DNA from: Paenisporosarcina sp. FSL H8-0542
Lineage (GTDB): Bacteria > Bacillota > Bacilli > Bacillales_A > Planococcaceae
Length of the DNA stretch: 64,000 bases
Reading direction: 5' to 3'
Assembly: GCF_038632915.1 (NCBI RefSeq)
Contig: NZ_CP152050.1
Span: forward strand, 1,147,001 to 1,211,000
Positions 35,557 through 52,469 of the stretch are shown here, one piece after another; the first letter of the stretch is position 1; every line of letters starts with the position of its first letter. The notes under the pieces were generated by a model, which saw only the letters and a program-made list of their open reading frames with translations, searched no databases and was not told the DNA's origin. The position numbers and the translations under genes were made by a program.

Positions 35557-35572
35557 AAAAGGGGTGCTTATT

Positions 35573-36950: not shown

Positions 36951-36977
36951 AGCATTGCTTTTAGCAGTGCTTTTTTC
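36951..36977 (+). terminator. Rho-independent terminator downstream of megL
   Basis: AGCATTGC and GCAGTGCT pair (one G-U) and are followed by T6. Its form resembles the terminator hairpin inside the repeat element that begins to appear 90 bp further on. The 160 bp between megL and here holds no gene. Confidence 0.65.
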
Positions 36978-37060
36978 TTGCTCAATTTTAATAATAAAAA
37001 GATTTATATCAAATATATGGTAATGTGTTAAATAGATAAATTGATTAAGTTGGTTCTTTT

Positions 37061-37094
37061 GTTATTCAACTTACGGGGCAGTTAATTGAATAAC
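37061..37094 (+). repeat. Cassette repeat, hairpin C type (diverged)
   Basis: GTTATTCAA and TTGAATAAC arms flank TTACGGGGCAGTTAA. This is the first copy of the element at the left edge of the array. Confidence 0.65.
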
Positions 37095-37119
37095 TTTAAA
37101 AAGTGAATGGAGGGTCACT

Positions 37120-37317
37120 ATGAATAGAAATACCAAATTCGCACTATTTGTTTCATTAATAATTTTAATAGGATTTCCAGTTCTTTTTTCCTTCATATCA
37201 TTGTTTACAGGGAATTGGAACTATCTTATGTGGAGCATTCCTCCTTCATTTACAGCAGGGTTTACTGGTTTGATAATAACTCTTCGACAATTAAAAAAGG
37301 AGGGAAAAAGTGTGTAA
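37120..37317 (+). CDS. Small two-segment membrane protein
   Basis: A 65-residue protein with two hydrophobic segments (about residues 8-28 and 36-55), joined by a short loop containing TGNWNYLMWS, and a basic C-terminus. GGAGGG lies 7 bases before the ATG. It is the first gene of the repeat-bordered array, just after a copy of the hairpin element. I do not recognise the family; small immunity-like or cell-envelope proteins look like this, but nothing specific supports a function. Confidence 0.6.
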   Translation: MNRNTKFALFVSLIILIGFPVLFSFISLFTGNWNYLMWSIPPSFTAGFTGLIITLRQLKKEGKSV

Positions 37318-37347
37318 CGTTGCACTTTTCAAAAAACGGTGAGTGGT

Positions 37348-37370
37348 TCTTATTGAACTAACGGGGAAGA
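37348..37370 (+). repeat. Cassette repeat, left half only
   Basis: TTCTTATTGAACTAACGGGG is intact, but the right arm is lost. The copy lies between the genes at 37120 and 37413. Confidence 0.55.
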
Positions 37371-37412
37371 TTTCCTTAAGAAGCTAAAGAGATAATTGAT
37401 GGAGGTTATTAC

Positions 37413-37661
37413 TTGGAAGGAATTATGGGCGTCTTGTTGGGTACATTAGGTCTGTTTTATCCATTACTTCTAGCATCAGTCATTACTTTTGTCTATGCAC
37501 TTATAAAACGTTCTTGGATTTGGATGTTGATAAGTGCAATTTTACTGTATCCCGATGCTTGGTTTTTTAGTGGTTATCCGCCATTTCCTTGGGCAAAATT
37601 TGTTCCCTTAATTCAGGTAATATTGGCTATAATTTTTTATCTTTTGAAAAGAAAGAGATAG
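37413..37661 (+). CDS. Small membrane protein
   Basis: An 82-residue protein with three hydrophobic segments (about residues 5-27, 31-47 and 62-77) and a C-terminal KRKR. The TTG at 37413 is chosen because GGAGG lies 7 bases upstream; the ATG at 37425 would be too far from it. It is bordered by repeat copies at 37348 and 37690. Family not recognised. Confidence 0.55.
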   Translation: MEGIMGVLLGTLGLFYPLLLASVITFVYALIKRSWIWMLISAILLYPDAWFFSGYPPFPWAKFVPLIQVILAIIFYLLKRKR

Positions 37662-37689
37662 TCACAAGTGCTTTACGGGTTAAGTTTTT

Positions 37690-37725
37690 CTTCTTGAACT
37701 AACGGGACAGATTAGTTTAATAAGA
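37690..37725 (+). repeat. Cassette repeat, hairpin C type
   Basis: CTTCTTGAACTAAC, loop GGGACAG, ATTAGTTTAATAAG. Confidence 0.7.
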
Positions 37726-37768
37726 CTTCTAAATTCAGAGATAAACGTAAACTAATAGGGGGGGGAAT

Positions 37769-38119
37769 ATGAAACATTTAATTAAAATGTTCGTAGTTAT
37801 AATTTTTATTTTACTATTGGCAGGTTGTACTGGTGTTCCAGGTGAAGAAACACCAGGTCATTTAACTAAAAAACAAGTGCTGAAGGAAAATCCTGAAGCA
37901 GACTATTTTGAACTCAATGATAAAGTTTATGTAAGGGAAATTGGATGGATAGAGGAAGTAGAATTGACAAAAGATGAGATAATTGGGGAAATTGAAGAAG
38001 GTATGGCAAGTGATTTACCTCTGGGAACTAAAATTTTCGCACCAAAAGAAAGAAGAGATATTCTCATAGTAGAAAATAACGGAATAGAAATAAGATATTT
38101 ACTTCAACTGGGAGAGTAA
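37769..38119 (+). CDS. Small lipoprotein
   Basis: A 116-residue protein with a lipoprotein signal peptide: KHLIKMFVVIIFILLLAGC, with the lipobox LAGC at residues 17-20, so the mature protein would be tethered outside the membrane. The mature part is acidic, with EADYFELNDKVYVREIGWIE followed by TKDEIIGEI. It matches no family I can name. GGGGGGAAT precedes the ATG. It is bordered by a repeat copy upstream (37690) and a partial copy downstream (38130). Confidence 0.65.
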   Translation: MKHLIKMFVVIIFILLLAGCTGVPGEETPGHLTKKQVLKENPEADYFELNDKVYVREIGWIEEVELTKDEIIGEIEEGMASDLPLGTKIFAPKERRDILIVENNGIEIRYLLQLGE

Positions 38120-38129
38120 TCCAAAAGTA

Positions 38130-38150
38130 CTTCAACCAACGGGACAGGTG
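38130..38150 (+). repeat. Cassette repeat, truncated, supplying a ribosome binding site
   Basis: CTTCAACCAACGGGACAGGT is the left half of the element. Its ACAGGTG end lies 6 bases before the ATG of the next gene and is the only ribosome-binding-like sequence there. Confidence 0.5.
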
Positions 38151-38156
38151 ATGAAA

Positions 38157-38468
38157 ATGGACAATTTTGAACGAATGTTAGAAGAAATGCAACAAAGAAC
38201 CGTGGATGAAATGAAAAAATCAAGCATTCAAATAGACAAAGATAAATTAAACTCCTTCAAAGATATAATTTCAGATTTAGTAAGCTTTGGAAATGAGTAT
38301 GCCGATAAAATGTCTCAATCACATGCTTCAATAAATCAGGAAATTATTAAAGTTGAATATACAAAGGGTGGAGAGACCATACACAGAGGATTTTATTGTC
38401 CAAGTCTAGTAAAAGATTTAATCGTTGGAAATCTTAAAAGAGGTAAACTCCTTAAGAAAAAACCTTAG
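38157..38468 (+). CDS. Hypothetical protein
   Basis: A 103-residue hydrophilic, lysine-rich protein with a helical N-terminal half (DNFERMLEEMQQRTVDEMKK) and a C-terminal GGETIHRGFYCPSLVKDLIV. There are no membrane segments. Three starts are in frame (GTG 38148, ATG 38151, ATG 38157); the last has the best spacing to ACAGGTG. The family is unknown to me. It is directly followed by a broken gene. Confidence 0.5.
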   Translation: MDNFERMLEEMQQRTVDEMKKSSIQIDKDKLNSFKDIISDLVSFGNEYADKMSQSHASINQEIIKVEYTKGGETIHRGFYCPSLVKDLIVGNLKRGKLLKKKP

Positions 38469-38764
38469 TTTGGAAAGTTTTCTTATGAATACGGGTTTGA
38501 TAAAGATAACCGGCTGGTAAGGGTTAAAGGCGTAAATGAGTTTACTACCCAGAGAGCCAGTTTGAGGAAGAATATTTAGTTTATAACAATGAGTTTGTTT
38601 ATGGTGTAGAGTTTGATCATACGGGTGAAATAAATGGGGTATCTCGGAGTACTTATGAAAACGGGAATATCATTACATATGCAGATTGTTCTTGTTTTTT
38701 GAGATTACAAGAGCACTCTAAGGAGATAGCTGAAAAATTATGTGAACGAGATAAACAAAAGTAA
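38469..38764 (+). pseudogene. Frameshifted gene remnant
   Basis: Two overlapping frames continue one protein. The first reads YEYGFDKDNRLVRVKGVNE and stops (TAG) after KNI. A shift near 38540 opens a second frame reading YYPESQFEEEYLVYNNEFVY and on to CFLRLQEHSKEIAEKLCERD with a TAA at 38762-38764. No start codon or ribosome binding site is left at the 5' end. The dipeptide-rich YEN-G / YxY pattern resembles RHS/YD or MORN-like repeats only weakly. Confidence 0.55.
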
Positions 38765-38770
38765 GCGATA

Positions 38771-38860
38771 TTATTCAACTAACGGGTGCTTTAGTAAAAA
38801 TCATCGGGCTGCTTAGGCAGCTTTTTTTCTTATTGAACTAACTGGGCAGGTTAGTTGAAG
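38771..38860 (+). repeat. Cassette repeat, complete copy
   Basis: Hairpin A (TTCAACTAACGGGTGCTTTAG), hairpin B (GGGCTGCTTAGGCAGC plus T8, a terminator) and hairpin C (TTGAACTAACTGGGCAGG, TTAGTTGAA) in series. Confidence 0.8.
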
Positions 38861-38878
38861 AGTGTTGTTAAACTTGTG

Positions 38879-38906
38879 TTCAACAATCGGACCATATAGT
38901 TGAATA
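38879..38906 (+). repeat. Cassette repeat, diverged hairpin
   Basis: GTTCAAC ... GTTGAATAA arms flank AATCGGACCATATA. It is a decayed C-type hairpin next to a complete copy. Confidence 0.45.
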
Positions 38907-38954
38907 ATTTGATAATGTATTAGTTAAATAAATTAAGGGGAATGATTTTAAATT

Positions 38955-39562
38955 ATGATGTCTACTATGCCAAAAATTGTATTTAAAAGAGCTATTAATT
39001 TTTTTATATTTGCAGCAGCCATAACAATTATTGCAACGATAATAACATACATTATCAATCCGGATTTAAAAGAAGTAATGGGAGGGCTAGAAAATAGGTT
39101 ACCGGACCAAACAAAAGAATCTACAGGCTTAGATAAAGTATGGTCATATGTTGTTAATAACGGCTTTACGGTACCTTTGCAAATGTTTATTTTAGCCTTG
39201 ATTCCAATACAATTTTTATATGTCATAAATATAATTTTTACCGTCGCTTTGCCTGGAGTTGCTTATGGACTTGCTTTACAAGTCGATTTTAGAAAAGGTT
39301 TTGATATTATAGTTTCTTCTATCCCTCACTTTAACTTTGAAGTTTTTGCTCTATGCTTACTTGCAGCGGTTCTTTTTGAATTAAACCAAGTTGTTAGAGT
39401 AAGGTTAAGAAATTTATTTAAGAAAGATAAAGAAGGTATATCTTTTATTAAAAAATTCTTAGAACAATAAGAACTTACGCTATTTTTGTTTTACCGATAA
39501 TCATTGCAGCCGCATTTTTGGAAACTTACATAGCTGATATCATATTTAATTTATTTCAATAG
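38955..39562 (+). pseudogene. SpoIIM-like membrane protein, frameshifted near the 3' end
   Basis: The first 171 codons encode an N-terminal membrane segment (INFFIFAAAITIIATIITYI), an extracytoplasmic loop and two more segments with PGVAYGLALQVDFRKGF and FEVFALCLLAAVLFELN, the pattern of the SpoIIM/DUF95 family. The frame stops at 39468-39470, but the expected last segment is intact in the next frame (YAIFVLPIIIAAAFLETYIA, stop at 39560-39562). One extra base near 39467 would explain it. AAGGGG lies 12-13 bases before the ATG. Either a recent pseudogene or a sequencing error; bordered by repeat copies. Confidence 0.65.
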
Positions 39563-39630
39563 CAGATGTCAATGGATGGATTGGTAAATGCTTTGGATTA
39601 AGCGCAAGAGACACAATGAAATAGTTTTCC

Positions 39631-39702
39631 ATAAACGGTGCTTTAGTTGAAGATCATTGAGATGCTTTTCTTATTCAACTAACGTGGCAGGTTAGCTAAA
39701 TA
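39631..39702 (+). repeat. Cassette repeat, complete but shortened copy
   Basis: A partial hairpin A (ACGGTGCTTTAGTTGAAG), a degenerate hairpin B, and hairpin C (CTTATTCAACTAAC, GTGGCAG, GTTAGCTAAATAGG). Confidence 0.65.
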
Positions 39703-39822
39703 GGAAATTATGTGAAATAAGGTGTAATTATACCTCACCAAATTCCATTTTATAAAACTGTTAATGTAACTTTTTGGTTTAAATGTCGTTATATTTATTA
39801 ATTACATATATTATCAAGGAGA

Positions 39823-40174
39823 TTGACGTTTATTATTTCTGAGGTGCTTTGGCGTTTACATCATATATTAATGTTAATGCTTTTTTTATTGGCAATCTAT
39901 CGAATTATATTTTCACATAAAATGGTAAAAGAATCTTTACTATTAGTTGTTATCCTACCCCCTTACAATTATTATTTTCTTCGCAAATTTAATAAATAGA
40001 AGAACAATAAATACTAACGAACTGGAATGGTTGTGGATGGAATTAACAAAAGGGTCTTTATGGTCAGTGATTGTTATATTGGGATATTTTTATATTTTTT
40101 ACTTTACTATTAAACTATTTACAACGAAAGTCCTTAATAAAAATAATAATAAAAGAGAAACAAGCAAAAATTAA
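39823..40174 (+). pseudogene. Small membrane protein gene split by a frameshift
   Basis: A frame from TTG 39823 (AAGGAGA upstream) reads ISEVLWRLHHILMLMLFLLA and then runs out. The continuation ITIIFFANLI-type segment and NTNELEWLWMELTKGSLWSV are in another frame, entered at the C5 run at 39958-39962. Joined, this would be a ~115-residue protein with three membrane segments. The homopolymer makes either a slippage mutation or a sequencing error likely. Confidence 0.5.
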
Positions 40175-40180
40175 TTAATT

Positions 40181-40216
40181 TCTTATTGAACTAACGGGGC
40201 AGGTTAATGAGTAAGA
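40181..40216 (+). repeat. Cassette repeat, hairpin C type
   Basis: TCTTATTGAACTAACGGGGC then AGGTTAATGAGTAAGA; the right arm is partly diverged. Confidence 0.6.
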
Positions 40217-40602
40217 ATAAGGATAGGCGTAGCTTTTAAATAAAGTTAAGATGTTTTGCATAAAGTCGCGACGTTTGTAAAAAAGACGCATCGTTTTGAA
40301 AAAACTTTAACCGATAATTTATAAAATTTTGATCAAAACCCTGAGTTGATATGCAGGATTTTTCTTTCAGCAATCGGGCCAGATTCTTGAATAAATAGAA
40401 TTCGTTTAAGATTAAGGACGAAGAACCGTATCATAAGTAAATGAGGTTTTTAAAATCAAAGTGAACGGAATACATTAGACGTTCACTTTGACAATTAAGA
40501 ATTGTGCTTCATGAAATTATGCTATGTTGGTAAGTAAACTGTAATACCAAGTTTATGAACTCATGAACAACAGCTAATTTTGTTCTAAAGTATATTTATC
40601 CA
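40217..40602. other. Intergenic region with decayed repeats
   Basis: No gene seen. It holds a diverged element copy at 40361-40396 (TTCAGCAATCGGGCCAGATT). A stretch at about 40425 (GAACCGTATCATAAGTAAAT) recurs at about 43755 (GAACCGTACCATAAGTAAGT). AAAGTCGCGACGTTTG at about 40262 recurs in variant form at about 45620. Confidence 0.4.
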
Positions 40603-40654
40603 TAAAAAACTACACCTCCAATTGATAGATGTGTCTAAAAATTGGGGTGCAGTT
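40603..40654 (-). terminator. Terminator of the ytbDE transcript
   Basis: On the minus strand AACTGCACCCCAATT and AATTGGAGGTGTAGTT pair (with G-U pairs), followed by T6. Confidence 0.75.
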
Positions 40655-40709
40655 CATTTATTAGAGGAAAAGTGTCTGTTTTTTAATGTTATCCTATGCC
40701 CTTTTTTAT

Positions 40710-41552
40710 TTAAAAATCAAAGTTGTCAGGGTCTGGTCCTACTCGATGATTTTGATTTAGCTCATCAATTCGCTGCATCTCTTCTTTTGTTAGTTCGAAG
40801 TCAAATACAGTTGAGTTCTCAACAATTCGATATTCCTTCGTGGATTTTGGAATGGTTACAACACCATTTTGTAAATCCCATCGTAAAATAATTTGGGCAA
40901 TGGTCTTGTTATACTTATTTGCAATTTCTTGTAATACTAGATTATCTAATAATTGACCTTGCATTAAAGGTGACCAAGCTTCTAACTGAATTCCATGTTC
41001 TTGACAAAAGGCTTGAATTTCTTTCTGAGTTAAACGTGGATGGTATTCTACCTGGTTAACCATCGGTTTAATTTCAGCATCGTTCATTAAGTCCTCCAGA
41101 TGGTGGACTTGGAAGTTACTTACTCCAATAGCCTTTACTCTTCCTTCTTTATAAAGAGTCTCTAATGCACGCCAAGCTTCCTTATATTTACCTTCTACTG
41201 GCCAGTGAATAAGGTATAAATCTAAATACTCAAGATTAAGTTTCTTTAGGCTTGTTTCATAAGCTACTATAGTTGATTCGTAACCTAAGTCAGAATTCCA
41301 AACTTTCGATGTTATAAATAGTTCTTCTCTTGGGATACCTGCTTCATTTATCCCTTCTCGAATAGCTTGTCCAACTCCTTCTTCATTTTCATAAATAGCT
41401 GCTGTATCAATACTACGATACCCATGTTTGATTGCAAATTTAACGGCATTAACCAGTTCAGGGCCTTCTTCTACTTTAAACACCCCAATTCCAAACCAAG
41501 GCATTTTTACACCATTATGCAAAGTAGTTGTATCTTGTATGTTTTTAATCAT
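40710..41552 (-). CDS. ytbE: Aldo/keto reductase, YtbE-like
   Basis: A 280-residue NADPH-dependent aldo/keto reductase with the catalytic tetrad in SIDTAAIYENEEGVGQAI (Asp, Tyr), ITSKVWN (Lys) and YLIHWPVEG (His), and the cofactor-binding IPKSTKEYRIVEN. It reduces small aldehydes and ketones; natural substrate unknown. It follows the MFS gene by 74 bp on the same strand, with the HxlR gene divergent. That is the ytbE-ytbD / ytcD arrangement of B. subtilis, which lies in the same general neighbourhood there. This unit is therefore probably ancestral to the locus and not part of the cassette array around it. Confidence 0.9.
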   Translation of the reverse strand: MIKNIQDTTTLHNGVKMPWFGIGVFKVEEGPELVNAVKFAIKHGYRSIDTAAIYENEEGVGQAIREGINEAGIPREELFITSKVWNSDLGYESTIVAYETSLKKLNLEYLDLYLIHWPVEGKYKEAWRALETLYKEGRVKAIGVSNFQVHHLEDLMNDAEIKPMVNQVEYHPRLTQKEIQAFCQEHGIQLEAWSPLMQGQLLDNLVLQEIANKYNKTIAQIILRWDLQNGVVTIPKSTKEYRIVENSTVFDFELTKEEMQRIDELNQNHRVGPDPDNFDF

Positions 41553-41626
41553 TATAAATAAACCTCCAAATTTTTATTATGAGAAATGAGATCGTTCTAT
41601 ATTTGGTGATTTCACACATTTATTAC

Positions 41627-42838
41627 TTAGGAAACCACCTCCTTCAATTTATCCCCTTTTTGGTCTTTTCTTTCAAGGAATGCACTCCAACCTGCAAGGA
41701 TGGCAGCTATCAGTACCATAAGTGCTCCTACCCAAGAGGTGTGAATCAGTCCAATAGAGTCTGTGATAATACCACCTAAGTAGGATCCAATTGCAATTCC
41801 AGCGTTAAACGCAGCAATATTGATGGCCGACGCCATATCTACTCCAGTAGGTACAAATCGTTCTGCTAACATGACCACATACACTTGTAATCCCGGCACA
41901 TTCATAAAAGCTAGAACCCCCATTAAGAAAATGGTAATCAATCCTGCTATTTTAAATGGTGCCGTAAACATCAGGATAAATAGTATCACCGCTTGTACAA
42001 TAAACATGTAAAATAATGCTCTAATCGGATTGTGATTAGACAGCTTTCCACCCACCATGTTGCCAATAGCGATCGCAATACCATAAACAAGAAGAATCAC
42101 AGCAACTGTTCCTTCTTTATATCCTGTTATTTCCTGTAGTATCGGTGATAGATAAGTAAAGACAACGAATGTTCCTCCATAACCTAAGGCAGTAATCATA
42201 AATAAAAGTAATAAGCGACCATTTGTTACTAATTTGAACTGATCACGAAACGTTGTACGAGTACCTTTTCGTAAACTAGATGGAATCAGGATACTATTCG
42301 CGATTAAGGCTATAACTCCGATGACAATGATGATGATAAAGGCCATTCTCCAACCAAATTGTTGTCCAATTAATGTTCCCAATGGTACACCTGTTACAGT
42401 TGCTACCGTGAGTCCTGAAAACATAATGGATATGGCACTAGCTCTTCGATTTTCCGGTACTAAATCTGCAGCGATGGTAGAGCCAATGGACATAAAAACT
42501 CCATGTGAAAAGGCAGAAATAACACGAGCAACAAGTAACACACCAATGCTTGTCGCACTAGCAGCAATACTATTGCCTATAATAAAAATAACCATAATCC
42601 AAAGTAGTAATGATTTTCGTGACATACTAGAGGTAATGGATGTTAGAATAGGTGCCCCAAATGTTACTCCTAATGCATATAAGGAAACTGTTAAGCCTGC
42701 TGTCGTAACAGATATTTGTAAATCATTCGCTATTAATGGTAATAGGCCTACACTGATAAATTCTGTTGTTCCTATTGCAAATGCACTAATAGCTAAGGCT
42801 AACAGTGCTAATGTACTTTGTTTTTTATCTAAAGGCAT
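41627..42838 (-). CDS. ytbD: MFS efflux transporter, YtbD-like
   Basis: A 403-residue major facilitator of the drug:H+ antiporter/AraJ type with 12 hydrophobic segments. The first segment contains LALAISAFAIGTTEFISVGL, the loop 2-3 motif is present (GAPILTSITSSMSRK), and motif C is in segment 5 (AVTGVPLGTLIGQQFGWR). Substrate unknown; relatives export sugars or drugs. It is cotranscribed with the aldo/keto reductase. A perfect 12-bp palindrome between it and ytcD is the likely HxlR operator. AAGGAGGAG lies just before the ATG. Confidence 0.9.
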   Translation of the reverse strand: MPLDKKQSTLALLALAISAFAIGTTEFISVGLLPLIANDLQISVTTAGLTVSLYALGVTFGAPILTSITSSMSRKSLLLWIMVIFIIGNSIAASATSIGVLLVARVISAFSHGVFMSIGSTIAADLVPENRRASAISIMFSGLTVATVTGVPLGTLIGQQFGWRMAFIIIIVIGVIALIANSILIPSSLRKGTRTTFRDQFKLVTNGRLLLLFMITALGYGGTFVVFTYLSPILQEITGYKEGTVAVILLVYGIAIAIGNMVGGKLSNHNPIRALFYMFIVQAVILFILMFTAPFKIAGLITIFLMGVLAFMNVPGLQVYVVMLAERFVPTGVDMASAINIAAFNAGIAIGSYLGGIITDSIGLIHTSWVGALMVLIAAILAGWSAFLERKDQKGDKLKEVVS

Positions 42839-42965
42839 TTTTCTCCTCCTTAATAATTTGGTAATGTATGAACGATCTTGTTTTAAGTAAACTAAATAAT
42901 AATTACATTAAAACTCAACCGATAAATGCTATTATGGTACATATGAATTAAATAGAGAAGTACGC

Positions 42966-42994
42966 ACTTAAAAGTACTATAGGTACTTTTAAGT
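42966..42994. promoter_or_regulatory. Perfect palindrome, probable HxlR (YtcD) operator
   Basis: ACTTAAAAGTAC, spacer TATAG, GTACTTTTAAGT: a perfect 12-bp inverted repeat 25 bp before ytcD and 127 bp before ytbD. It fits a dimeric winged-helix regulator controlling both directions. Confidence 0.75.
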
Positions 42995-43019
42995 TCCTAT
43001 GCATGAGGAGAAATTATAT

Positions 43020-43391
43020 ATGAAGAAAAAGAAATACAATATTTCAGTAGAAGCGACGCTAGAAGTGATAGGAGGAAAGTGGAAATGTGTGATTCTATGC
43101 CATTTAACACACGGTAAGAAACGAACAAGTGAATTGAAACGTCTTATGCCAGATATTACACAGAAGATGTTAACCCAACAATTACGCGAATTAGAGGTAG
43201 ATGGAGTCATTAATAGAATTGTTTATAATCAAATTCCTCCAAAAGTGGAGTATGAGCTAAGTGAATATGGATGGAGCTTACAAGGTATCTTAAATTCACT
43301 ATGTACATGGGGAGAAAAGCATATTATCAAAGTGTATGGCGATACATTTGATGTCCTGGAAGAGAACGTTCTAAATGAACATCTAAAATAA
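43020..43391 (+). CDS. ytcD: HxlR-family transcriptional regulator, YtcD-like
   Basis: A 123-residue MarR-like winged-helix regulator of the HxlR family: VIGGKWKCVILCHLTHGKKR, TQKMLTQQLRELEVDG and the wing QIPPKVEYELSEYG. The N-terminal cysteine of redox-sensing members (CPxE...) is replaced by Ser-Val-Glu-Ala here, but two cysteines remain in the KWKCVILC stretch. Start at ATG 43020, because GAGGAG lies 9 bases upstream; the in-frame ATG at 42999 lies before that site. Divergent from ytbD-ytbE, with a perfect palindrome between; it probably represses that pair. Confidence 0.9.
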   Translation: MKKKKYNISVEATLEVIGGKWKCVILCHLTHGKKRTSELKRLMPDITQKMLTQQLRELEVDGVINRIVYNQIPPKVEYELSEYGWSLQGILNSLCTWGEKHIIKVYGDTFDVLEENVLNEHLK

Positions 43392-45296: not shown

Positions 45297-45322
45297 AATA
45301 AAAAGCACCTCCGAAGAGATGC
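45297..45322 (-). terminator. Terminator with UUCG loop
   Basis: On the minus strand GCATCTC TTCG GAGGTGC is followed by T5. It lies 19 bp after the decayed peptide gene. Confidence 0.8.
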
Positions 45323-45340
45323 ATTAGTTCAAATAAGTAT

Positions 45341-45492: not shown

Positions 45493-45865
45493 AATTTCCA
45501 TCCTCCGTTTTTAGAAATTATTGTGTTACATTATACAATATTTTCTAAATACCTTTTTATTTATTAGAATTTTTAAACTTTTATAAAGGAAACTTAGAAA
45601 GTAGTCTGTAGTTTTGAAACAAAGTTGCGATGTTTTGTTAACAGGCAGACGTAATCTAGCAAAGGGGTAGCGTCAGGGAAATGCGGATTTACAACGTTAA
45701 GGAAATCCTCATATTAAAAAACCTAATTTCTCAATAAATGCTGGGAAATTAGGCTTTTTTCGTTACTACATTAAAGCGCCCTTTTATTGAATAAGAATTT
45801 TCTTCAAATATTTTTACTTCAGTAATGTATATTTCAGCAAAGGCTTTTTATAAAACGTCACTTAC
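45493..45865. other. Intergenic region with a plus-strand terminator
   Basis: There is no gene. CCTAATTTC and GAAATTAGG pair at 45722-45752 with T6 after it, but no plus-strand gene precedes it, so the gene it served is probably lost. Confidence 0.45.
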
Positions 45866-46318
45866 TTATTTGTTACCGAGTTGTTCCGCCAAACCGATTA
45901 GAAGTCCTTCGATTCCACGAATGTAGCAGAGCCGATACGAGTCCTCGTACTGAACCACTTCGCCAACGAGCTGAGCACCATACTTAGTGAGTCTGGATAC
46001 CATTTCGTCAATGTCTTCAACGGTGAACATGACGCGTAGATAACCGAGGGCGTTTACAGGAGCAGTCCGGTGATCTGATATAGTAGCTGGGGTGAGAAAT
46101 CGCGAAAGTTCAAGTCGGCTGTGGCCATCTGGGGTAACCATCATAGCAATCTCTACGCACTGAGAACCCAATCCGGTTACGCGACCAGCCCATTCACCTT
46201 CGACAGTGGCTCGCCCTTCGAGGTTCAAGCCAATCTCCTCGAAGAAAGAGATTGCGTCATCAAGGGATTCTACAACGATGCCGACATTGTCCATTCTTAG
46301 TAATTTGTTTTTTGCCAT
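45866..46318 (-). CDS. VOC-family (glyoxalase/bleomycin resistance) protein
   Basis: A 150-residue vicinal-oxygen-chelate protein with two beta-alpha-beta units: MDNVGIVVESLDDAISFFEE near the start and LGYLRVMFTVEDIDEMVSRL in the second half, ending YIRGIEGLLIGLAEQLG. VOC enzymes use a metal held by His/Glu to isomerise, open or conjugate small molecules; which one cannot be told. The coding sequence is clearly richer in G and C than the surrounding intergenic DNA and neighbouring cassettes, a sign of separate origin. The ATG has GGAGATAAG about 6 bases upstream. Confidence 0.85.
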   Translation of the reverse strand: MAKNKLLRMDNVGIVVESLDDAISFFEEIGLNLEGRATVEGEWAGRVTGLGSQCVEIAMMVTPDGHSRLELSRFLTPATISDHRTAPVNALGYLRVMFTVEDIDEMVSRLTKYGAQLVGEVVQYEDSYRLCYIRGIEGLLIGLAEQLGNK

Positions 46319-46610
46319 AGTCTTATCTCCTTATGTGTAAAAATTTATTATCTGATCATCTTCATAATTATTCTATTAAAAAGTTACAAATTCCTTCCAA
46401 ACAAAAAACACCTTGTCACAGTATAGGAAAATGTGAAATTGGGTTTTGGTGTATGTCATATAACATCTTGTTAACGAACAACACTTCGTAAACCCTCTAC
46501 TATTGGAATAATCGCGAACCTTATTTCGTGAATGCCATCATATTCGATACCGTAGTTGCTATTCGATAAAACAACTTCGACTTCCCCACAAAATATTCCT
46601 ACCCTGTACT

Positions 46611-46719
46611 CCATTAAATGGCCCTTTAATGGAATAAGGAACGATTATTGTTTCTCTTTGGGGTTGCTTAGGCAACTCTTTTTTCTAATTAAACTAACGG
46701 GGCAGGTTACTGCAATAAG
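46611..46719 (+). repeat. Cassette repeat, complete copy with variant hairpin A
   Basis: The A hairpin here is CCATTAAATGGCCCTTTAATGG (paired CCATTAAA / TTTAATGG): different bases, same structure. B is GGTTGCTTAGGCAACTC plus T6. C is AAACTAACGGGGCAGGTTAC. The compensating changes in A suggest that the fold matters. Confidence 0.7.
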
Positions 46720-46781
46720 AAGGAGTAACCTATTCACATCTCGAATTAATTAAATGGATAAAAAAGAAAGAGGGGAAATAT

Positions 46782-47159
46782 GTGATTATTATTCTTGTAA
46801 AGTTTCTATTACCTGCTATTTTATTGTTTTACCTTCTTCTTAGAATTTTAGATAAAAAAGATAGTAAATCAAAATCGACACTTGTTTTATTAATAACATC
46901 ATTGGTCTTTAATACAGCATTAGCACAAAACTATAATCACAGCTTAATTCCATACCCAGAAAGGGATGGCTATTCTGCTTCCAACTCGTTGGCATATTAT
47001 GTTTTTGGTGAAGACCATTTTGGACACTGGAACTCCGATTTATTTAGGACTGGATATGAAATTTCAATCAACGTTTCGATGATATTGTTGGTTATATATA
47101 TTGGTTGTTTAATATTTGAACGTAGAAAAAAAGGCAAAGAGTACATCCTTAACAATTGA
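46782..47159 (+). CDS. Membrane protein of a repeat-bordered cassette
   Basis: A 125-residue protein with three hydrophobic segments: residues 2-20 (IIILVKFLLPAILLFYLLL), about 31-50 and about 93-113. An extracytoplasmic loop between the second and third contains NYNHSLIPYPERDGYSASNS and FGEDHFGHWNSDLFRTGYE. GTG start with AGGGG 7 bases upstream. It is framed by complete repeat copies at 46611 and 47171. Family not recognised. Confidence 0.6.
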   Translation: MIIILVKFLLPAILLFYLLLRILDKKDSKSKSTLVLLITSLVFNTALAQNYNHSLIPYPERDGYSASNSLAYYVFGEDHFGHWNSDLFRTGYEISINVSMILLVIYIGCLIFERRKKGKEYILNN

Positions 47160-47170
47160 ATTGAAATTCC

Positions 47171-47260
47171 TTATTCAACTAACGGACGCTTTAGTTAAAG
47201 ATCGTGGAGTTGCTTGGGCAGCTCTTTTTTCTTATTAAACTAACGGGGCAGGTTAGCAGA
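47171..47260 (+). repeat. Cassette repeat, complete copy
   Basis: A: TTCAACTAACGGACGCTTTAG; B: GTTGCTTGGGCAGCTC plus T6; C: TTAAACTAACGGGGCAGGTT. It starts 11 bp after the stop of the gene at 46782. Confidence 0.8.
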
Positions 47261-47319
47261 AGAACCGATTCATGATTATAAAAAACGTAGTTAGGTTTTA
47301 TCTTAGAAAGGAATTTTAA

Positions 47320-47541
47320 ATGGAAAGTATTTTATTATTAATTTTCGGTGTAGGATTTATTGCTTTTGGGATTAGACACAATAAAAATATTCACAAAGAA
47401 GAAGGTTTTGGTCATAGTGGTTCAATTATTCTTGAATTTATTACAAGTTGGACAGATAAATTACCATATTGGTTTACAAAAACAATTTATTTATTAATTG
47501 GGCTTGGGTGTCTGATTGGCAGTTCTCTTACATATTATTAA
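47320..47541 (+). CDS. Small membrane protein of a cassette
   Basis: A 73-residue protein with two hydrophobic segments (SILLLIFGVGFIAFGI near the N-terminus; TIYLLIGLGCLIGSSLTYY at the C-terminus) and a soluble middle rich in H, N, K and E. AAAGGAA lies 8 bases before the ATG. It is framed on both sides by complete repeat copies. No family recognised. The two-segment hairpin resembles other members of this array (37120, 37413), which may be functionally alike. Confidence 0.58.
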   Translation: MESILLLIFGVGFIAFGIRHNKNIHKEEGFGHSGSIILEFITSWTDKLPYWFTKTIYLLIGLGCLIGSSLTYY

Positions 47542-47560
47542 GGAGATTGTGAAGGATTCT

Positions 47561-47650
47561 ACTTAAACTAACGGGTGCTTTAGTTAAAGATCATCGGGTT
47601 GCTATGCAGCCCTTTTTCTTATTAAACTAACGAGGCAGGTTAGTTGAAGA
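47561..47650 (+). repeat. Cassette repeat, complete copy
   Basis: A: TTAAACTAACGGGTGCTTTAG; B: GGTTGCTATGCAGCCC plus T5; C: AAACTAACGAGGCAGGTTAG. It starts 19 bp after the preceding stop. Confidence 0.8.
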
Positions 47651-47712
47651 AGAATCAAGATGTAATTTAATTAAAAGGAAAAAATACACGTCAATAGGAA
47701 AGTGGTGTTCAG

Positions 47713-48119
47713 ATGTCTCGTGCAGGGTTAGATAAGCTGAGGATTTTAGAGATATCCAAAGATAAAATAGGTAGATATGTGAAATTCAGGGCAACTCTTG
47801 CTGATGGCACATTAGATTTTCGATGCGAATTAGATGCTTTAACATATAAACACTTAAGAGAATCAGTTTCAAAAAAGTATTTTGACTCACTGCTTCAGGT
47901 TACCAATACGATTTAATTCTTAATATTCAACAAAATCTAAATGATAATCCTGATTTACCCTTTAAAGGAAAAATAAGATGTACACAAGGCAATCGAGCAA
48001 TTCAAGTAGAATTTCCTTGCTCCGAAAGATTTGCCGGAAATATAAATTGGTTTACAATGGAAGTTAAAACTACAAAAGACATTCAACATTTAGAATGGAC
48101 AAGGTTTTCTTTAGATTAA
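47713..48119 (+). pseudogene. Cassette gene with a frameshift in the middle
   Basis: The first frame encodes 67 residues (MSRAGLDKLRILEISKDKIG ... SVSKKYFDSLLQVTNTI). A second frame continues from about 47900 (YDLILNIQQNLNDNPDLPFK, then TTKDIQHLEWTRFSLD, stop at 48117-48119). A single base change near 47905 would join them into ~135 residues. The start is sound (AAAGTGGTG before the ATG). Family unknown. Pseudogene or sequencing error. Confidence 0.55.
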
Positions 48120-48202
48120 AAGGACCAGTAAGAGTGTCAAATAAAGCGAAGTATTTTTGGATGATCTAGCTTTTTACAATAACCGTTAAAGAGGTGAATT
48201 TA

Positions 48203-48631
48203 ATGAGTGAGTGTATTTATATTAATAATATTGATTCTACTCCGGAATGGAAGAAGATTTTAACTACAGTTATCGAATATAGTGATGAATTTGCAATTGT
48301 GTTTCCGAATGGTGAATATGATGCAGATAACCCTTTATTAGCAGGAATGCTTGATTTTAAAAATCTTCCTAATATCAGCGTTTCTCCTTGGCCTAATATG
48401 AAAGACAGTAGTGTCTATAGAGCGGAACTTAATGATACTTCAAGGAACTTAATTCTTAATTACACACTAAATGATACGTTTGATTCAATTTGGAATTTCA
48501 GCTTATACAAAGGAGATTTAGAAGTCTTAAACGTAGCAGATTTCAGTGAATGCTTCATATACCCTGATCCTGAAGTGATAATGTTGGTAACCCAAAATGG
48601 TATAGATTTGAGCCGATTTGACAAATGGTAA
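48203..48631 (+). CDS. Hypothetical cassette protein
   Basis: A 142-residue acidic, soluble protein without signal or membrane segment, with SECIYINNIDSTPEWKKILT near the start and DGAD-poor, aspartate-rich ends (YPDPEVIMLVTQNGIDLSRF). ATG 48203 is chosen over the GTG at 48194 because AAAGAGGTG lies 6-7 bases before the ATG. It shares one repeat interval (47561-48742) with the broken gene before it, so this cassette holds two genes. Small acidic soluble proteins next to toxins are often immunity proteins, but no toxin is seen; function unknown. Confidence 0.6.
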   Translation: MSECIYINNIDSTPEWKKILTTVIEYSDEFAIVFPNGEYDADNPLLAGMLDFKNLPNISVSPWPNMKDSSVYRAELNDTSRNLILNYTLNDTFDSIWNFSLYKGDLEVLNVADFSECFIYPDPEVIMLVTQNGIDLSRFDKW

Positions 48632-48652
48632 TCAGGGATTATGATTATTTTT

Positions 48653-48742
48653 TCTTCTTCAACTAACGGGTGCTTTAGTTGAAGAACATCGGGCTGCGTA
48701 AGCAGCTTTTTCTTATTGAACTAACGGGGCAGGTTAGTTGAA
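48653..48742 (+). repeat. Cassette repeat, complete copy
   Basis: A is perfect here: CTTCAACTAA, CGGGTGCT, TTAGTTGAAG. B: GGGCTGCGTAAGCAGC plus T5. C: TTGAACTAACGGGGCAGGTT then AGTTGAA. It starts 22 bp after the preceding stop. Confidence 0.85.
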
Positions 48743-48816
48743 CAAAAAGGTGAGAATTCATCTCTCTATTATGTCGAATTTGATTCATATTGTGAAAGAA
48801 TGAGGAGGGGTTATAA

Positions 48817-49029
48817 TTGGCTAATAAATATTGTCCTATATGTGGAGAGGAAAACGAATGTATGACAGGAAGAGTAGAACACGGTAACTGCTGGTGTGAT
48901 ACAGAAGGCGTATTTCCTATTGGAATCTTTGAGTTAGTTCCTACAGAGAGTATAAGGAAGAATTGTATATGTGAAAAATGTGTAAATAAATATAGGGACG
49001 AAGCGAAAATAAAGAAAGATATGTTGTGA
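48817..49029 (+). CDS. Cysteine-rich CWC-type small protein
   Basis: A 70-residue protein with CPICGEENEC near the N-terminus, GNCWCDTEG in the middle and CICEKCVNKYR near the C-terminus, i.e. the cysteine-rich CWC family pattern, probably a zinc-binding knuckle. TTG start with GAGGAGGGG 6 bases upstream; no nearer ATG. The role of the family is not known. It is framed by repeats at 48653 and 49068. Confidence 0.65.
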   Translation: MANKYCPICGEENECMTGRVEHGNCWCDTEGVFPIGIFELVPTESIRKNCICEKCVNKYRDEAKIKKDML

Positions 49030-49067
49030 ACAATACGAAGAATTTATGCAATATAAGAAAATGTGCT

Positions 49068-49130
49068 TGTTTAACTAAACGGTAGCTTTAGTTGAAGAAC
49101 CGGCTGCCTTTTACAGGGCAGTCTTTTTTT
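49068..49130 (+). repeat. Cassette repeat, hairpins A and B
   Basis: TTTAACTAAACGGTAGCTTT then AGTTGAAG (A), and CTGCCTTTTACAGGGCAG plus T7 (B). The C hairpin lies ~110 bp further on (49243), so the copy is split by inserted sequence that has no gene. Confidence 0.7.
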
Positions 49131-49242
49131 ATGAACCTAGTTAGATACTTCCCAATCGGGATGTATGTCAACCTAGGATGTATACGTGATACAATCCAGT
49201 TGAGTAAGTGAATCGAGCTTTAACGGACGGATCATCTAGTTT

Positions 49243-49276
49243 CTTGTTCTACTAACGGGGCAGGTTAGTTGAATAA
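49243..49276 (+). repeat. Cassette repeat, hairpin C
   Basis: CTTGTTCTACTAACGGGGCA then GGTTAGTTGAATAAG. This is the detached right part of the copy at 49068. Confidence 0.7.
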
Positions 49277-49323
49277 GGATTCTTTATTGAATAAATAAAT
49301 AACATTTAGGAGGATTAAATAGA

Positions 49324-49863
49324 GTGAAAAAAACAGCAGTGTTATTATACCCTCAATATAGTGAGTATGAGCTAAGTGTTGCATTATCCATTCTTATGCA
49401 GGGAGAGAAACCTGTCATAACTATCGGTCTAAATAATTTGCCTATTAGAGGCGAATCTGGACTAACTTGTTTAACTGATACTACAATTGATGAAGTAAAC
49501 CTTGAGGAGATAGATAGTCTTTTATTAACAGGTTGTATGGATATATTAGCATTAGAAGGTAAGAAAGAAATATTTGAGTTTATAAGTCGAATAGAGAGTA
49601 AAGCAACTGTAATTGGAAGCATTTCAAGTTCTCCGTATCTTTTAGCAAATGCAGGGCTTTTAAACGGCAAAAAATATACTATTGGTATGACAGAAGAAAA
49701 CCGAGAGAAGTCTGGTGTTTTTGAAAAGGAAAACTATAGTGAAGAACTTGTAGTCCAAGATGGAAAGCTGATAACTGCAAGGGGCAGAGGGTTTATAAGA
49801 TTTGGGGTATGTTTTGGAAAAGCATTAAACCTGAAATTTGATGAAAATTGGTATAAGGAATAG
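49324..49863 (+). CDS. DJ-1/PfpI-like protein lacking the usual nucleophilic cysteine
   Basis: A 179-residue class I glutamine-amidotransferase-like protein (KKTAVLLYPQYSEYELSVAL, LLLTGCMDIL, LLANAGLLNGKKYT). In most DJ-1/PfpI proteins the elbow before LANAGLL carries a catalytic Cys; here it reads IGSISSSPYLL, with Ser in its place, so hydrolase or chaperone activity of the usual type may be lost. GTG start (49324) with AGGAGG 10 bases upstream. It is framed by repeats at 49243 and 49868. It could act as a binding or regulatory protein. Confidence 0.78.
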   Translation: MKKTAVLLYPQYSEYELSVALSILMQGEKPVITIGLNNLPIRGESGLTCLTDTTIDEVNLEEIDSLLLTGCMDILALEGKKEIFEFISRIESKATVIGSISSSPYLLANAGLLNGKKYTIGMTEENREKSGVFEKENYSEELVVQDGKLITARGRGFIRFGVCFGKALNLKFDENWYKE

Positions 49864-49867
49864 GGTC

Positions 49868-49990
49868 TTCTTCAAGTAACTGGGGGCTTTATTTAAAGTA
49901 CATTGGGCTTGCTTTGGTAGCTCTTTTTTCTTATTGAACTCCCATGAAAATTAATCTTATCCAACTAACGGGGCAGGTTAGTTCAATAAG
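49868..49990 (+). repeat. Cassette repeat, complete copy with a second right end
   Basis: A: CTTCAAGTAACTGGGGGCTT; B: degenerate (GGGCTTGCTTTGGTAGCTC) plus T6; a first C left arm CTTATTGAACT is abandoned, then a full C follows (CCAACTAACGGGGCAGGTTA, GTTCAATAAG). This looks like two element ends fused. Confidence 0.7.
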
Positions 49991-50052
49991 CAAAATTTTT
50001 CGAAACTAATATGTCATCAAATACGTATAGTTGATGGAGGAGGAATCCCATC

Positions 50053-50760
50053 ATGTTGTATTTATTCATTTTATTTCTAGCTACTCAATTAGGTATTTGG
50101 ATTAGGTACTTTGTAAAAGGGTTTATTGAACTTTCACAATTGGGTCTTAGCTGTTTGTTTTTAGTAGCTGCGGTAGTATTTTTTATTATTGAAATTCTTC
50201 AAAGTAAAAAAGATGCACAGTTTAAACCAAAATCAGAAGATCTTTGGCAAACAAGATTAACAGAACGTTCTAAAACGACGGAAAAGAAACTTACAAAAGG
50301 CAATCAACGTATTTTTCGCTATAGGCGGTATTATCCTACTTTTTGGCAACGTTTATTTGTTGAGTTGGTAAATGCCTCCGATAAATATATCCATCTGGCT
50401 TTTTTTAATGAAACCAAGCGAGTAGAGTGGCAAGAGTATAGTAAATTTACTTCTAACAAAGTTGTTTGGAAAGTAATAGAGAATGGCATAGAAATCGCGG
50501 AAGCTCGTTATACCCCGAAGATAAAAGATAAACTAAATTTTGAGGATAAGTTAGCCATCCATATTCAAGACGAAACCTATCAATTACTATCCTATAAAGT
50601 GAGTAATCAAGTTTTGGTTTATAAAGATTCACAAAAGATTAGCGAAGCCGATTTGTCAAAATTAGTGATGGGAAATTTAGAGTTTCGCATACATGATACG
50701 AATGAAGAACTATTAGCCATGGCAATTGTGCTATTTCAATATTTACATAAAAGTGGCTGA
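50053..50760 (+). CDS. Membrane-anchored hypothetical protein of a cassette
   Basis: A 235-residue protein with two N-terminal hydrophobic segments (LYLFILFLATQLGIWIRYF; LGLSCLFLVAAVVFFIIEIL) and a ~180-residue basic cytosolic part with RYRRYYPTFWQRLFVELVNA and NLEFRIHDTNEELLAMAIVL. GGAGGAGG lies 10 bases before the ATG. No family recognised. It is the longest intact gene in the array, framed by repeats at 49868 and 50892. It resembles the general form of small signalling or competence-type membrane proteins, without specific evidence. Confidence 0.65.
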   Translation: MLYLFILFLATQLGIWIRYFVKGFIELSQLGLSCLFLVAAVVFFIIEILQSKKDAQFKPKSEDLWQTRLTERSKTTEKKLTKGNQRIFRYRRYYPTFWQRLFVELVNASDKYIHLAFFNETKRVEWQEYSKFTSNKVVWKVIENGIEIAEARYTPKIKDKLNFEDKLAIHIQDETYQLLSYKVSNQVLVYKDSQKISEADLSKLVMGNLEFRIHDTNEELLAMAIVLFQYLHKSG

Positions 50761-50891
50761 ATAGTTGAAGGTGCACATAGAAAGTACATAATAAATAGTT
50801 TTATCTGAAGCCACTACTTTACTTGATTTATGGAATTTCCGAAATGTTGGAGATTCCCTGATAGTGATAAATAATTAAAGGTAAAAGATTC

Positions 50892-50985
50892 TTCTTCAAA
50901 TAACGGGTGCGTTAGTTAAAGATCATGGATTGCTTAGGCGGCTCTTTTTTCTTATTGAACTAACGGGGCAGGTTAGTTCAATAAG
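50892..50985 (+). repeat. Cassette repeat, complete copy with perfect hairpin C
   Basis: C is a perfect 14-bp inverted repeat: CTTATTGAACTAAC, loop GGGGCAG, GTTAGTTCAATAAG (50951-50985). B: ATTGCTTAGGCGGCTC plus T6. A: CTTCAAATAACGGGTGCGTT then AGTTAAAG. This is the best reference copy. Confidence 0.88.
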
Positions 50986-51088
50986 AAAAGGTAATTACCA
51001 TATATCTTGACCTAACACGTTATCAGATTAGTTAATGGTATAATTTGTTCGTTATGTAATTTTATATATAAAAAAGGATGTGTGATTT

Positions 51089-51634
51089 ATTAGAATTCAT
51101 TTTCTCTACCCCGCAATAGCAATTACGATTATATGGATAATTTTTAAGGCTTTTAACCTTACAATTATTAATAAGAAATTTGATTTTAAACGAGAAGTGG
51201 TAAATCTTCTTTACTTCATAAGTGTGATGGGAATCATAGGACTAACAATTTTCCCACTTGAAATAGCTTTTGGTCCTGAATACGATTCACCTAATAATTT
51301 TGTGCCGTTTGCAAGTATTAATGAATTATTAAATCACTTTTATTATATGGTTCCCTTAAGAAATATTTTAGGAAATATCATATTATTTATACCATTGGGT
51401 TGCATTCTTGTTTTGAAATTTAAGAGAATAAATAATCTTTCGAGTGTTGTGTTAGTAGGTGTATTAAGTTCAATGTTAATTGAGTTTATTCAATTATTAT
51501 TGCCTAACAGGGCGTTCGATGTTGATGATATTATATTAAATGCTATAGGGAGTATGATAGGTTTCCTAATACTTAAAGCATCCAAACTTGAAAAAATTGT
51601 TGTATTTAGTTCGGTTCAAAAACAAATAAATTAA
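51089..51634 (+). CDS. VanZ-like membrane protein, start codon unusual
   Basis: VanZ-family protein: FIPLGCILVLKFKRINNLSS, IEFIQLLLPNRAFDVDDIIL and NAIGSMIGFLIL. The first usual start in frame is a GTG at 51197 with no ribosome binding site. The frame is open back to a stop at 51083-51085 and encodes the expected first membrane segment (IRIHFLYPAIAITIIWIIF), beginning with an ATT at 51089 preceded by AAAAAGGATG. I therefore extend the gene to 51089 (181 residues); either ATT is used or the ATG has mutated. It is the last gene of the array, followed 6 bp after its stop by a repeat hairpin. Confidence 0.65.
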   Translation: MRIHFLYPAIAITIIWIIFKAFNLTIINKKFDFKREVVNLLYFISVMGIIGLTIFPLEIAFGPEYDSPNNFVPFASINELLNHFYYMVPLRNILGNIILFIPLGCILVLKFKRINNLSSVVLVGVLSSMLIEFIQLLLPNRAFDVDDIILNAIGSMIGFLILKASKLEKIVVFSSVQKQIN

Positions 51635-51640
51635 GGTTAG

Positions 51641-51674
51641 CTTATTGAACTAACGGGTGCTTTAGTTTAATAAG
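51641..51674 (+). repeat. Cassette repeat, hybrid hairpin at the right edge of the array
   Basis: CTTATTGAACTAA, CGGGTGCT, TTAGTTTAATAAG: the outer bases are of C type, the loop of A type. No further copy follows. Confidence 0.75.
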
Positions 51675-52444: not shown

Positions 52445-52469
52445 GAAATCACCTCTTAAAATTAGAAAC

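Follow-up and report, generated by a model that had tools for sequence, protein, structure and literature searches.

The array and its features

This work concerns an array of small genes and short palindromic sites in the genome of Paenisporosarcina sp. FSL H8-0542. The window, i.e. the whole stretch of DNA that was analysed, is 64,000 nucleotides in length (positions 1,147,001–1,211,000 of the forward strand of contig NZ_CP152050.1), and coordinates given without further mention refer to it. The array spans 37068–51667 and holds 13 sites of a type termed B and 8 of a type termed A, both counted at up to five mismatches. A preliminary description of this DNA had reported about 15 copies of one element between 37 and 51.7 kb; the repeats are real and lie on the plus strand, but two site types make up the array instead of a single element. 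The core of the B site, AACTAACGGGGCAGGTTAGTT, has 11 matches in the window at up to three mismatches, all on the plus strand between 37697 and 50978, and none in 100 shuffled sequences.

From 46.6 kb onwards sites and genes alternate and all are on the plus strand, as had been described. That all genes point one way does not hold between 40.2 and 46.6 kb: there the array is broken by mainly minus-strand genes (aldo/keto reductase-like, major facilitator superfamily, VanZ-like and glyoxalase-like, named by eye), and an A-like stretch is found on the minus strand at 45772–45802, within this block. The features are listed below, where the open reading frames (ORFs) are candidate cassette genes and the sister genome is G115, of the same species.

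37068–37088, plus strand: B-type site, first in the array, degenerate (5 mismatches)
37356–37376, plus strand: B-type site, degenerate (5 mismatches)
37697–37717, plus strand: B-type site; left end of 2.76 kb absent from the sister genome
37769–38119, plus strand: ORF of 116 amino acids (aa), lipoprotein-like by eye; no Pfam match
38777–38796, plus strand: A-type site opening a terminator mini-unit; terminator 38806–38823
38836–38856, plus strand: B-type site
38955–39470, plus strand: ORF of 171 aa, SpoIIM family (Pfam, 35.6 bits against a cut-off of 26.9)
39629–39648, plus strand: A-type site (5 mismatches)
39677–39697, plus strand: B-type site
40189–40209, plus strand: B-type site
46692–46712, plus strand: B-type site; terminator 46660–46679 upstream
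46782–47159, plus strand: ORF of 125 aa; no Pfam match; 88% identical paralogue in the array at 2.47 Mb
47177–47196, plus strand: A-type site; terminator 47206–47225
47238–47258, plus strand: B-type site
47320–47541, plus strand: ORF of 73 aa; no Pfam family above cut-off
47566–47585, plus strand: A-type site; terminator 47596–47612
47625–47645, plus strand: B-type site
47713–48631, plus strand: two-ORF unit, 67 aa (47713–47916) and 145 aa (48194–48631, no Pfam match)
48661–48680, plus strand: A-type site; terminator 48691–48708
48719–48739, plus strand: B-type site, exact consensus
48817–49029, plus strand: ORF of 70 aa, Cys_rich_CWC family (Pfam)
49074–49093, plus strand: A-type site (5 mismatches); terminator 49102–49123
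49250–49270, plus strand: B-type site
49324–49863, plus strand: ORF of 179 aa, DJ-1/PfpI family (Pfam)
49963–49983, plus strand: B-type site, exact consensus
50053–50760, plus strand: ORF of 235 aa, Tubby_C_like domain (Pfam)
50898–50917, plus strand: A-type site
50958–50978, plus strand: B-type site, exact consensus; left border of the unit replaced in the sister genome
51197–51634, plus strand: ORF of 145 aa, VanZ-like; two other gene units in its place in the same-species genome
51648–51667, plus strand: A-type site, last in the array; right border of the replaced unit

Ten window ORFs were compared with Pfam, which places five of them (SpoIIM, Cys_rich_CWC, DJ-1/PfpI, Tubby_C_like and VanZ); the other five are below cut-off. 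A terminator scan of 36900–51800 gives 13 candidates, compared with 7.3 in shuffled sequences (standard deviation 3.1). Six plus-strand terminators lie directly 3′ of an A site or 5′ of a B site (at 38806, 46660, 47206, 47596, 48691 and 49102), and none is called at several other sites, e.g. 39629–39677, 40189 and 50898–50958. The earlier statement that every full copy carries its own terminator is thus correct for a part of the copies. A promoter scan of the array finds 52 promoter-like sites, fewer than in shuffled sequences (66.1), and is therefore uninformative on cassette promoters.

Site anatomy and genome-wide distribution

The elements reach far beyond the window. In the whole 3.63-Mb genome the B core is repeated 147 times (72 on the plus and 75 on the minus strand; the reversed-pattern control gives 0), and the genome places listed fall into about a dozen clusters. 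The sites are therefore not evenly spread over the chromosome, the distribution that the preliminary description had named as contrary to a cassette array, but cluster in arrays of small genes. In 20 genome stretches together with the window there are 246 sites (129 B and 117 A) at up to five mismatches and 223 at up to four.

The consensus of 109 B and 94 A sites consists of a left arm, CTTnTTnAACTAAC, and GGG, followed by one of two right halves. The B right half is GCAG joined to the right arm KTTAGTTnAAnAAG, and the A right half is TGC joined to TTTAGTTnAAnA. The full site is about 35 bp in length and has two 14-bp arms, which are inverted repeats of each other, with a spacer of 6–7 bp between them. 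Inverted arms around a spacer of 6–7 bp are the usual plan of a tyrosine-recombinase core site.

In the window genome, gaps from a B to an A site hold a gene (median 615 bp, n=71), whereas gaps from an A to a B site are mostly about 60 bp (52 of 70 are 80 bp or less) and are the place of the terminator. Each gene unit has a right half-site (GCAG and KTTAGTTnAAnAAG) at its start and a left half-site (CTTnTTnAACTAAC and GGG) at its end, and any two neighbours therefore compose one full site of about 35 bp.

Variable arm positions show no covariation (67 of 223 complementary against 66.4 in shuffled pairings; 75 against 70.1 in genome G000), and thus there is no sign of selection for pairing. At position –1 of the unit's own arms in G115, pairing is above that of shuffled sequences (75 of 194, compared with 58.9; standard deviation 5.9). 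A folded hairpin as the recognized form was set aside, as variable arm positions do not covary across junctions in either genome; recombination of a single strand, which is folded in integrons, may nevertheless occur.

The sites point with replication in 214 of 223 cases in the window genome. Base 1 of the genome adjoins genes which we take, by eye, to be dnaA, dnaN, recF, gyrB and gyrA, and the GC skew of the sampled stretches switches sign between 1.79 and 1.85 Mb. It should be pointed out that background genes also lean with replication, and co-orientation is therefore not a strong test.

The B site is itself a target of insertion. A 425-aa IS110-family element is present in seven copies of 99.5–100% identity (loci L031, L032, L035, L040, L042, L043 and L047; e.g. 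genome positions 1034232–1036020), and all seven copies examined have one and the same insertion point in the B spacer, with GGGGCAG on one side and GTTAGTT on the other.

Gene units differ between genomes of one species

Genome G115 belongs to the same species as the window genome and is identical at many loci to Paenisporosarcina sp. HGH0030. At the window locus 34001–37717, 40475–50992 and 51641–53745 are collinear with it at 99.1–99.8% identity. In place of the last unit of the window array (VanZ-like, 51197–51634), the same B and A sites of G115 enclose two other units, whose ORFs are 95 and 111 aa in length.

Alignment ends in array spans were compared with chance placement, based on 68 high-scoring segment pairs (at least 95% identity and 150 bp) and 500 uniform placements in the same spans. 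Within 25 bp of a site core lie 97 of the 185 ends, compared with a random mean of 16.3 (standard deviation 3.8, maximum 30). Loci L031 and L314 have both flanks in common, with shared units in altered order. For 41 of 127 gene-size units G115 has a near-identical counterpart, with a matching neighbour in 26 cases and without one in 15; 78 of the 127 are absent, i.e. absent from the 19 stretches fetched from the sister genome. By our reading, the 15 without a matching neighbour consist of 6 in a different array, 2 reordered within an array and 7 at the same locus. The window genome also has paralogous units in different arrays, and in most of the 15 pairs printed identity is lost at or near the core, while some end away from it. 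In two pairs the shared gene end is followed by different starts, A in one array and B in the second.

The sister strain thus does not show the same order with point changes only; units differ and many breaks are at sites. Mobility of whole units at the site, as read from these alignments, is well supported. The comparison shows whole units gained, lost, replaced and sometimes moved between arrays of the same species, and such units are common to several genera. This supports the suggestion in the preliminary description that the layout is that of a cassette array.

The preliminary description had offered a plain repeat family as the alternative. A miniature inverted-repeat transposable element (MITE), a repetitive extragenic palindromic (REP)-like sequence or a terminator repeat could have spread beside pre-existing small genes that are themselves immobile, and many palindromic copies, some with a terminator, would fit with this. 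In MITE and REP families, however, it is the element that moves while the neighbour genes stay, whereas here genes, beyond the elements, differ at one locus between same-species genomes. The copies are moreover clustered, and unit borders fall within the palindrome. This explanation is already contradicted and is hardly tenable.

Where exchange takes place

Junctions between units were compared after removal of redundant places, which left 1167 distinct junctions (668 B and 499 A). Pairs that share the left unit and differ in the right one are BB in 118 cases, AA in 23 and AB in 21; those that share the right unit and differ in the left are BB in 44, AA in 85 and AB in 0. The lack of AB pairs in the second group, as opposed to 21 in the first, indicates that the right unit brings the GCAG/TGC half (core position 10 onwards) with it, and the left unit the left arm. 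Agreement at single positions of B pairs leads to the same view. At position –1 it is 0.88 when the left unit is shared and 0.34 when the right one is (background 0.33), and at position 14 it is 0.56 and 0.91, respectively (background 0.53). Core positions 0–5 are nearly invariant and lean to the left unit. These agreements place the exchange somewhere from about position 5 to position 10, close to where the spacer begins on the left. By the junction comparison, the exchange falls within the shared AACTAACGGG stretch, on the left side of the GCAG/TGC half, and units retain their halves in new contexts.

Perhaps the genes are shuffled by RecA homologous recombination between short repeats, with the repeats passive and the recombinase described below a hitch-hiker. 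Exchange borders at repeats would be expected from this process as well, A-terminator-B copies have about 95 bp in common, and 88 of the 185 alignment ends are off the sites. But homologous exchange would spread across the whole repeat, whereas the right spacer half always goes with the right unit (AB in 0 of 129 right-shared pairs, compared with 21 of 162 left-shared pairs). In addition, the arms are short and a dedicated recombinase unit co-occurs with the sites. RecA-mediated shuffling therefore appears quite unlikely.

A recombinase carried in the arrays

The preliminary description had seen no integrase and proposed a search for a co-occurring recombinase or Y1/HUH transposase. The window genome indeed has no intact copy, but a XerA-like tyrosine recombinase, here termed Int, is present inside the arrays of relatives. 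With this enzyme at hand the idea of a Y1/HUH transposase, at which no search by family was aimed, was set aside. A PF00589 search of 17 genomes (7 site-rich and 10 site-free) finds tyrosine recombinases inside the arrays of several site-rich genomes, and among the 37 nearest genomes matches of at least 52% identity, clearly above the XerC/XerD-like level, are confined to the seven that have at least 34 sites; elsewhere identity is 35% or less. The sister genome G115 has two open copies. In 261 genomes of the family, 84 have a match of any clade at E ≤ 1e-48, and 44 have the Int clade that accompanies the sites (at least 66% identity). Genomes with 30 or more sites number 33, of which 29 have this clade, compared with 15 of the 228 others (Fisher p = 2.7e-23; site counts and clade labels were transcribed by hand).

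Int genes are antisense to the arrays. Sites lie within 1.3 kb at 35 of 36 Int places (duplicate fetches of six places excluded), and each of these 99 neighbouring sites is on the strand opposite to int. At the remaining place, L278, the nearest sites are beyond 1.3 kb and are also opposite to int. The Int unit, about 1 kb in length, opens with an A-type start and a terminator-like hairpin, which are followed by the antisense gene and a left half-site; on the side away from its 5′ end, int is bordered by an A site. At 28 of the 36 places a site is present at the 5′ side of int, and in none of the 28 is its left half the usual CTTATTGAA arm (at least 7 of 9 bases). Most of these half-sites have in common a TTTTA-CTAACG form (e.g. 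L284, L289 and L234). This half-site may be an analogue of attI, or it may be only the shared end of related int units. The candidate start of int is a TTG after AGGGGGA, conserved in most of the loci printed.

The catalytic R, HxxR, H and Y motifs are present in Int (the IYAQ form is missing in 1 of 15 loci). Int passes the NCBIfam profile XerA_Arch NF040815 (225.3 bits, cut-off 220) and fails both the integron integrase profile TIGR02249 (93 bits, cut-off 265) and NF011946 (56.3 bits, cut-off 435). Its best solved relative is 4a8e; the solved IntI4 structure, 2a3v, aligns over residues 201–269 only. A tree of 59 recombinases separates the Int clade (100/98) from the remaining PF00589 proteins of these genomes, which we take to be XerC and XerD. 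Structure prediction of Int from three sequences was too poor for use (mean predicted local distance difference test score 54.5).

Int has probably been lost repeatedly in array-bearing genomes. Among the copies of G006, G012, G029 and G030 many have frameshift or stop breaks, several of which are near residues 85–97.

The distribution of Int is also relevant to the question of which enzyme acts at the sites, as site-specific recombination there might be carried out not by Int but by another enzyme, i.e. a host XerC/XerD-like recombinase or the IS110-family transposase. Proteins that we presume to be XerC/XerD-like (about 30% identical to Int) are in all 37 of the nearest genomes, but they are equally present in array-free genomes, while it is Int that tracks the arrays. 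The IS110 element is inserted in the B spacer in all seven copies examined, yet these copies interrupt B sites; it was rejected as the cassette enzyme and is read as a parasite of the site. The large arrays that the window genome keeps without an intact Int are in favour of another enzyme. Overall, we consider this explanation unlikely.

Arrays as probable rows of mobile gene cassettes

The best explanation, to which we give a probability of about 0.86, is that the arrays are rows of mobile gene cassettes that would be exchanged at the site with Int as the enzyme. The genome comparisons show that the gene of the XerA-like recombinase makes up a unit within the arrays, lies antisense to neighbouring sites and co-occurs with the arrays. 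From this linkage, orientation and co-occurrence we infer that Int drives unit movement. Int would bind the site arms and recombine two direct sites, whereby a unit would be released as a circle; circles would then be inserted at another site in the same orientation. The A-start units of about 60 bp, which have only a terminator, may insulate neighbouring genes.

Several observations weigh against this explanation. The 2757 bp absent from G115 (37718–40474) are bordered by a site at one end only, the 88 alignment ends mentioned above are away from sites, and by our reading just 6 of the 41 units shared with the sister genome are in a different array. Core positions 6–9 track neither neighbour clearly. 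With respect to the enzyme, the window genome has only two remnants of Int, and its arrays may for this reason now be idle; many other Int copies are broken. Four of the 33 site-rich genomes (G000, G174, G181 and G209) have no clade-1 Int at E ≤ 1e-48, 15 Int-bearing genomes have fewer than 30 sites, and Int relatives of about 62–65% identity in L321, L323 and L324 have no nearby sites by the pattern used. Finally, recombination of units and their circular forms are predictions from sequence comparison.

Comparison with known systems

Integrons, the gene-cassette system of the textbooks, have been described above all in Gram-negative bacteria. Firmicutes are listed among integron-bearing phyla in an excerpt of PMC8618304. 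The arrays resemble integrons and superintegrons (IntI, attI and attC; e.g. of Vibrio) in many respects. There are co-oriented single-gene units between palindromic sites, a tyrosine recombinase antisense to the cassettes with a distinct half-site on its 5′ side, mostly unknown or acetyltransferase-type genes, arrays on both chromosome and plasmid, and sites that are co-oriented with replication (here 214/223). Gene cassettes of integrons are gained, lost and shuffled as units, as here by sequence comparison. The differences concern the enzyme and the site. The recombinase is XerA-like, not IntI, by the profile scores and the 2a3v alignment (the tree compares it with PF00589 proteins of the same genomes). 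It is also itself a unit in the arrays; moreover there are many arrays per genome as well as terminator-only mini-units. An excerpt of PMC3053210 gives attC as a palindrome between RYYYAAC and GTTRRRY, 57–141 bp in length, compared with about 35 bp and a 6–7 bp spacer here. The sequence AACTAAC...GTTAGTT departs from each attC box at one base. With an enzyme that is not IntI and a site that is not attC, the system falls outside the definition of an integron, although it appears to work in the same way.

This raises the question of whether annotation has overlooked true integrons here, or attC clusters without an integrase (CALIN). The layout is the same, the content is cassette-like (acetyltransferases, glyoxalase, DinB and unknowns), the recombinase is antisense to the cassettes, and the distinct conserved half-site at the 5′ side of int has the position of attI in integrons. 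Nevertheless, the score of Int is far below the integron-integrase cut-off (93 against 265 bits), and the short site breaks the strict RYYYAAC/GTTRRRY rule, which makes overlooked integrons very improbable.

Acinetobacter plasmids have dif (pdif) modules, which are likewise small adaptive units bounded by short tyrosine-recombinase sites and shuffled between contexts. According to excerpts of PMC13141974, the binding sites for XerC and XerD in these modules have a 6-bp spacer between them, and the enzyme is host XerCD (further background in PMC6449649). The present sites differ in that they have symmetric arms with a 6–7 bp spacer rather than distinct XerC and XerD arms, are direct repeats and not inversely oriented (C and D modules), and are accompanied by a dedicated recombinase instead of host XerC/XerD. 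As to the XerA-type recombinases (NF040815), Int is above the family cut-off, but it branches separately from the other PF00589 proteins found in these genomes, and cassette arrays carry it as one of their units. Some IS110/IS1111-type elements target the attC sites of integrons; the IS110 element described above is like them in its fixed insertion point, but its target is the B site and not attC.

Spread and cargo

An exact-pattern scan with one genome per species finds sites in at least 120 stretches, all under names of Bacillales, an assignment that we made from general knowledge of the genus names. The genera are Paenisporosarcina, Viridibacillus, Sporosarcina, Solibacillus, Psychrobacillus and Lysinibacillus, and further Ureibacillus, Peribacillus, Neobacillus, Mesobacillus, Paucisalibacillus and Bacillus. 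Three units are shared across genera with different flanks. A NUDIX-like unit of Viridibacillus arvi and Solibacillus palustris is 99.4% identical over 681 bp, a unit of Sporosarcina limicola and Paenisporosarcina OV554 is 96.2% identical over 371 bp, and one of Viridibacillus arenosi and Peribacillus simplex is 88.4% identical over 862 bp (L112 652–1579 and L113 4968–5885). The last encodes a type A chloramphenicol acetyltransferase (316 bits, cut-off 270).

Among 398 Bacilli genomes, 26 have an Int match of any clade at E ≤ 1e-70, and Int relatives in other families have few strict-pattern sites nearby. With a relaxed pattern, 14 minus-strand and 9 plus-strand candidates are near the relative in L355 (palindromes can match both strands), and these repeats resemble drifted sites; L358 gave little.

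Plasmids also have arrays. A 95-nt query made from the site has matches at 122 places in 26 plasmid records and, at E 0.001, none in phage records. A Sporosarcina psychrophila plasmid has Int at 92.9% identity, antisense to the array. A plasmid filed under Arthrobacter citreus has an Int relative of about 65% and the same layout, with altered cores, AACTAACTGA followed by TGC and AACAAAATG followed by GCAG. The altered core together with a diverged Int fits a co-change of enzyme and site.

Of 160 selected array ORFs, 148 were scanned against Pfam (two IS110 copies and ten others were left out) and represent 101 families. Among the 25 families listed, sigma-70 factors (5 members) and acetyltransferases (4) are the most frequent; glyoxalase, DinB, metallo-beta-lactamase-fold and DUF families are also present. 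Such a mixture is of the kind known from integron cassettes.

With odds slightly better than even, the arrays represent a second integron of independent origin. This would be a cassette system belonging to Bacilli, with a XerA-like recombinase as an array unit able to spread, a short symmetric site and perhaps its own attI-like half-site. Arrays would amount to more than 100 gene units in one genome, and genes, including the chloramphenicol acetyltransferase unit, would have moved across genera and families. No description of such a system in Bacilli was found among the best matches in the open-licence PubMed Central literature, which has no preprints and few subscription journals. If this view is correct, the cassette mode of gene acquisition evolved more than once, the unknown small genes of common soil Bacilli form a large reservoir, and a compact recombinase, with a site of about 35 bp, is available for testing. 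One could then also test whether arrays can be maintained and spread by a recombinase that is itself one of their units.

Minor observations

Group II intron maturase genes are found in or beside plasmid arrays (L298 1805–3610 and 27515–29317; L319 21418–22746; L347 1–1251 and 8229–9557), and it is possible that these introns target sites or terminators. Klebsiella grimontii plasmid pNY3A (L346 4001–4037) has a 37-bp site-like match of 94.6% identity between an SMI1/KNR4 gene and a hypothetical gene, which may be a product of chance, transfer or mis-assembly. An Rfam scan of the window gives nothing on the array; its sole match is a T-box leader (RF00230) at 14292–14492, with 95.2 bits against 93.

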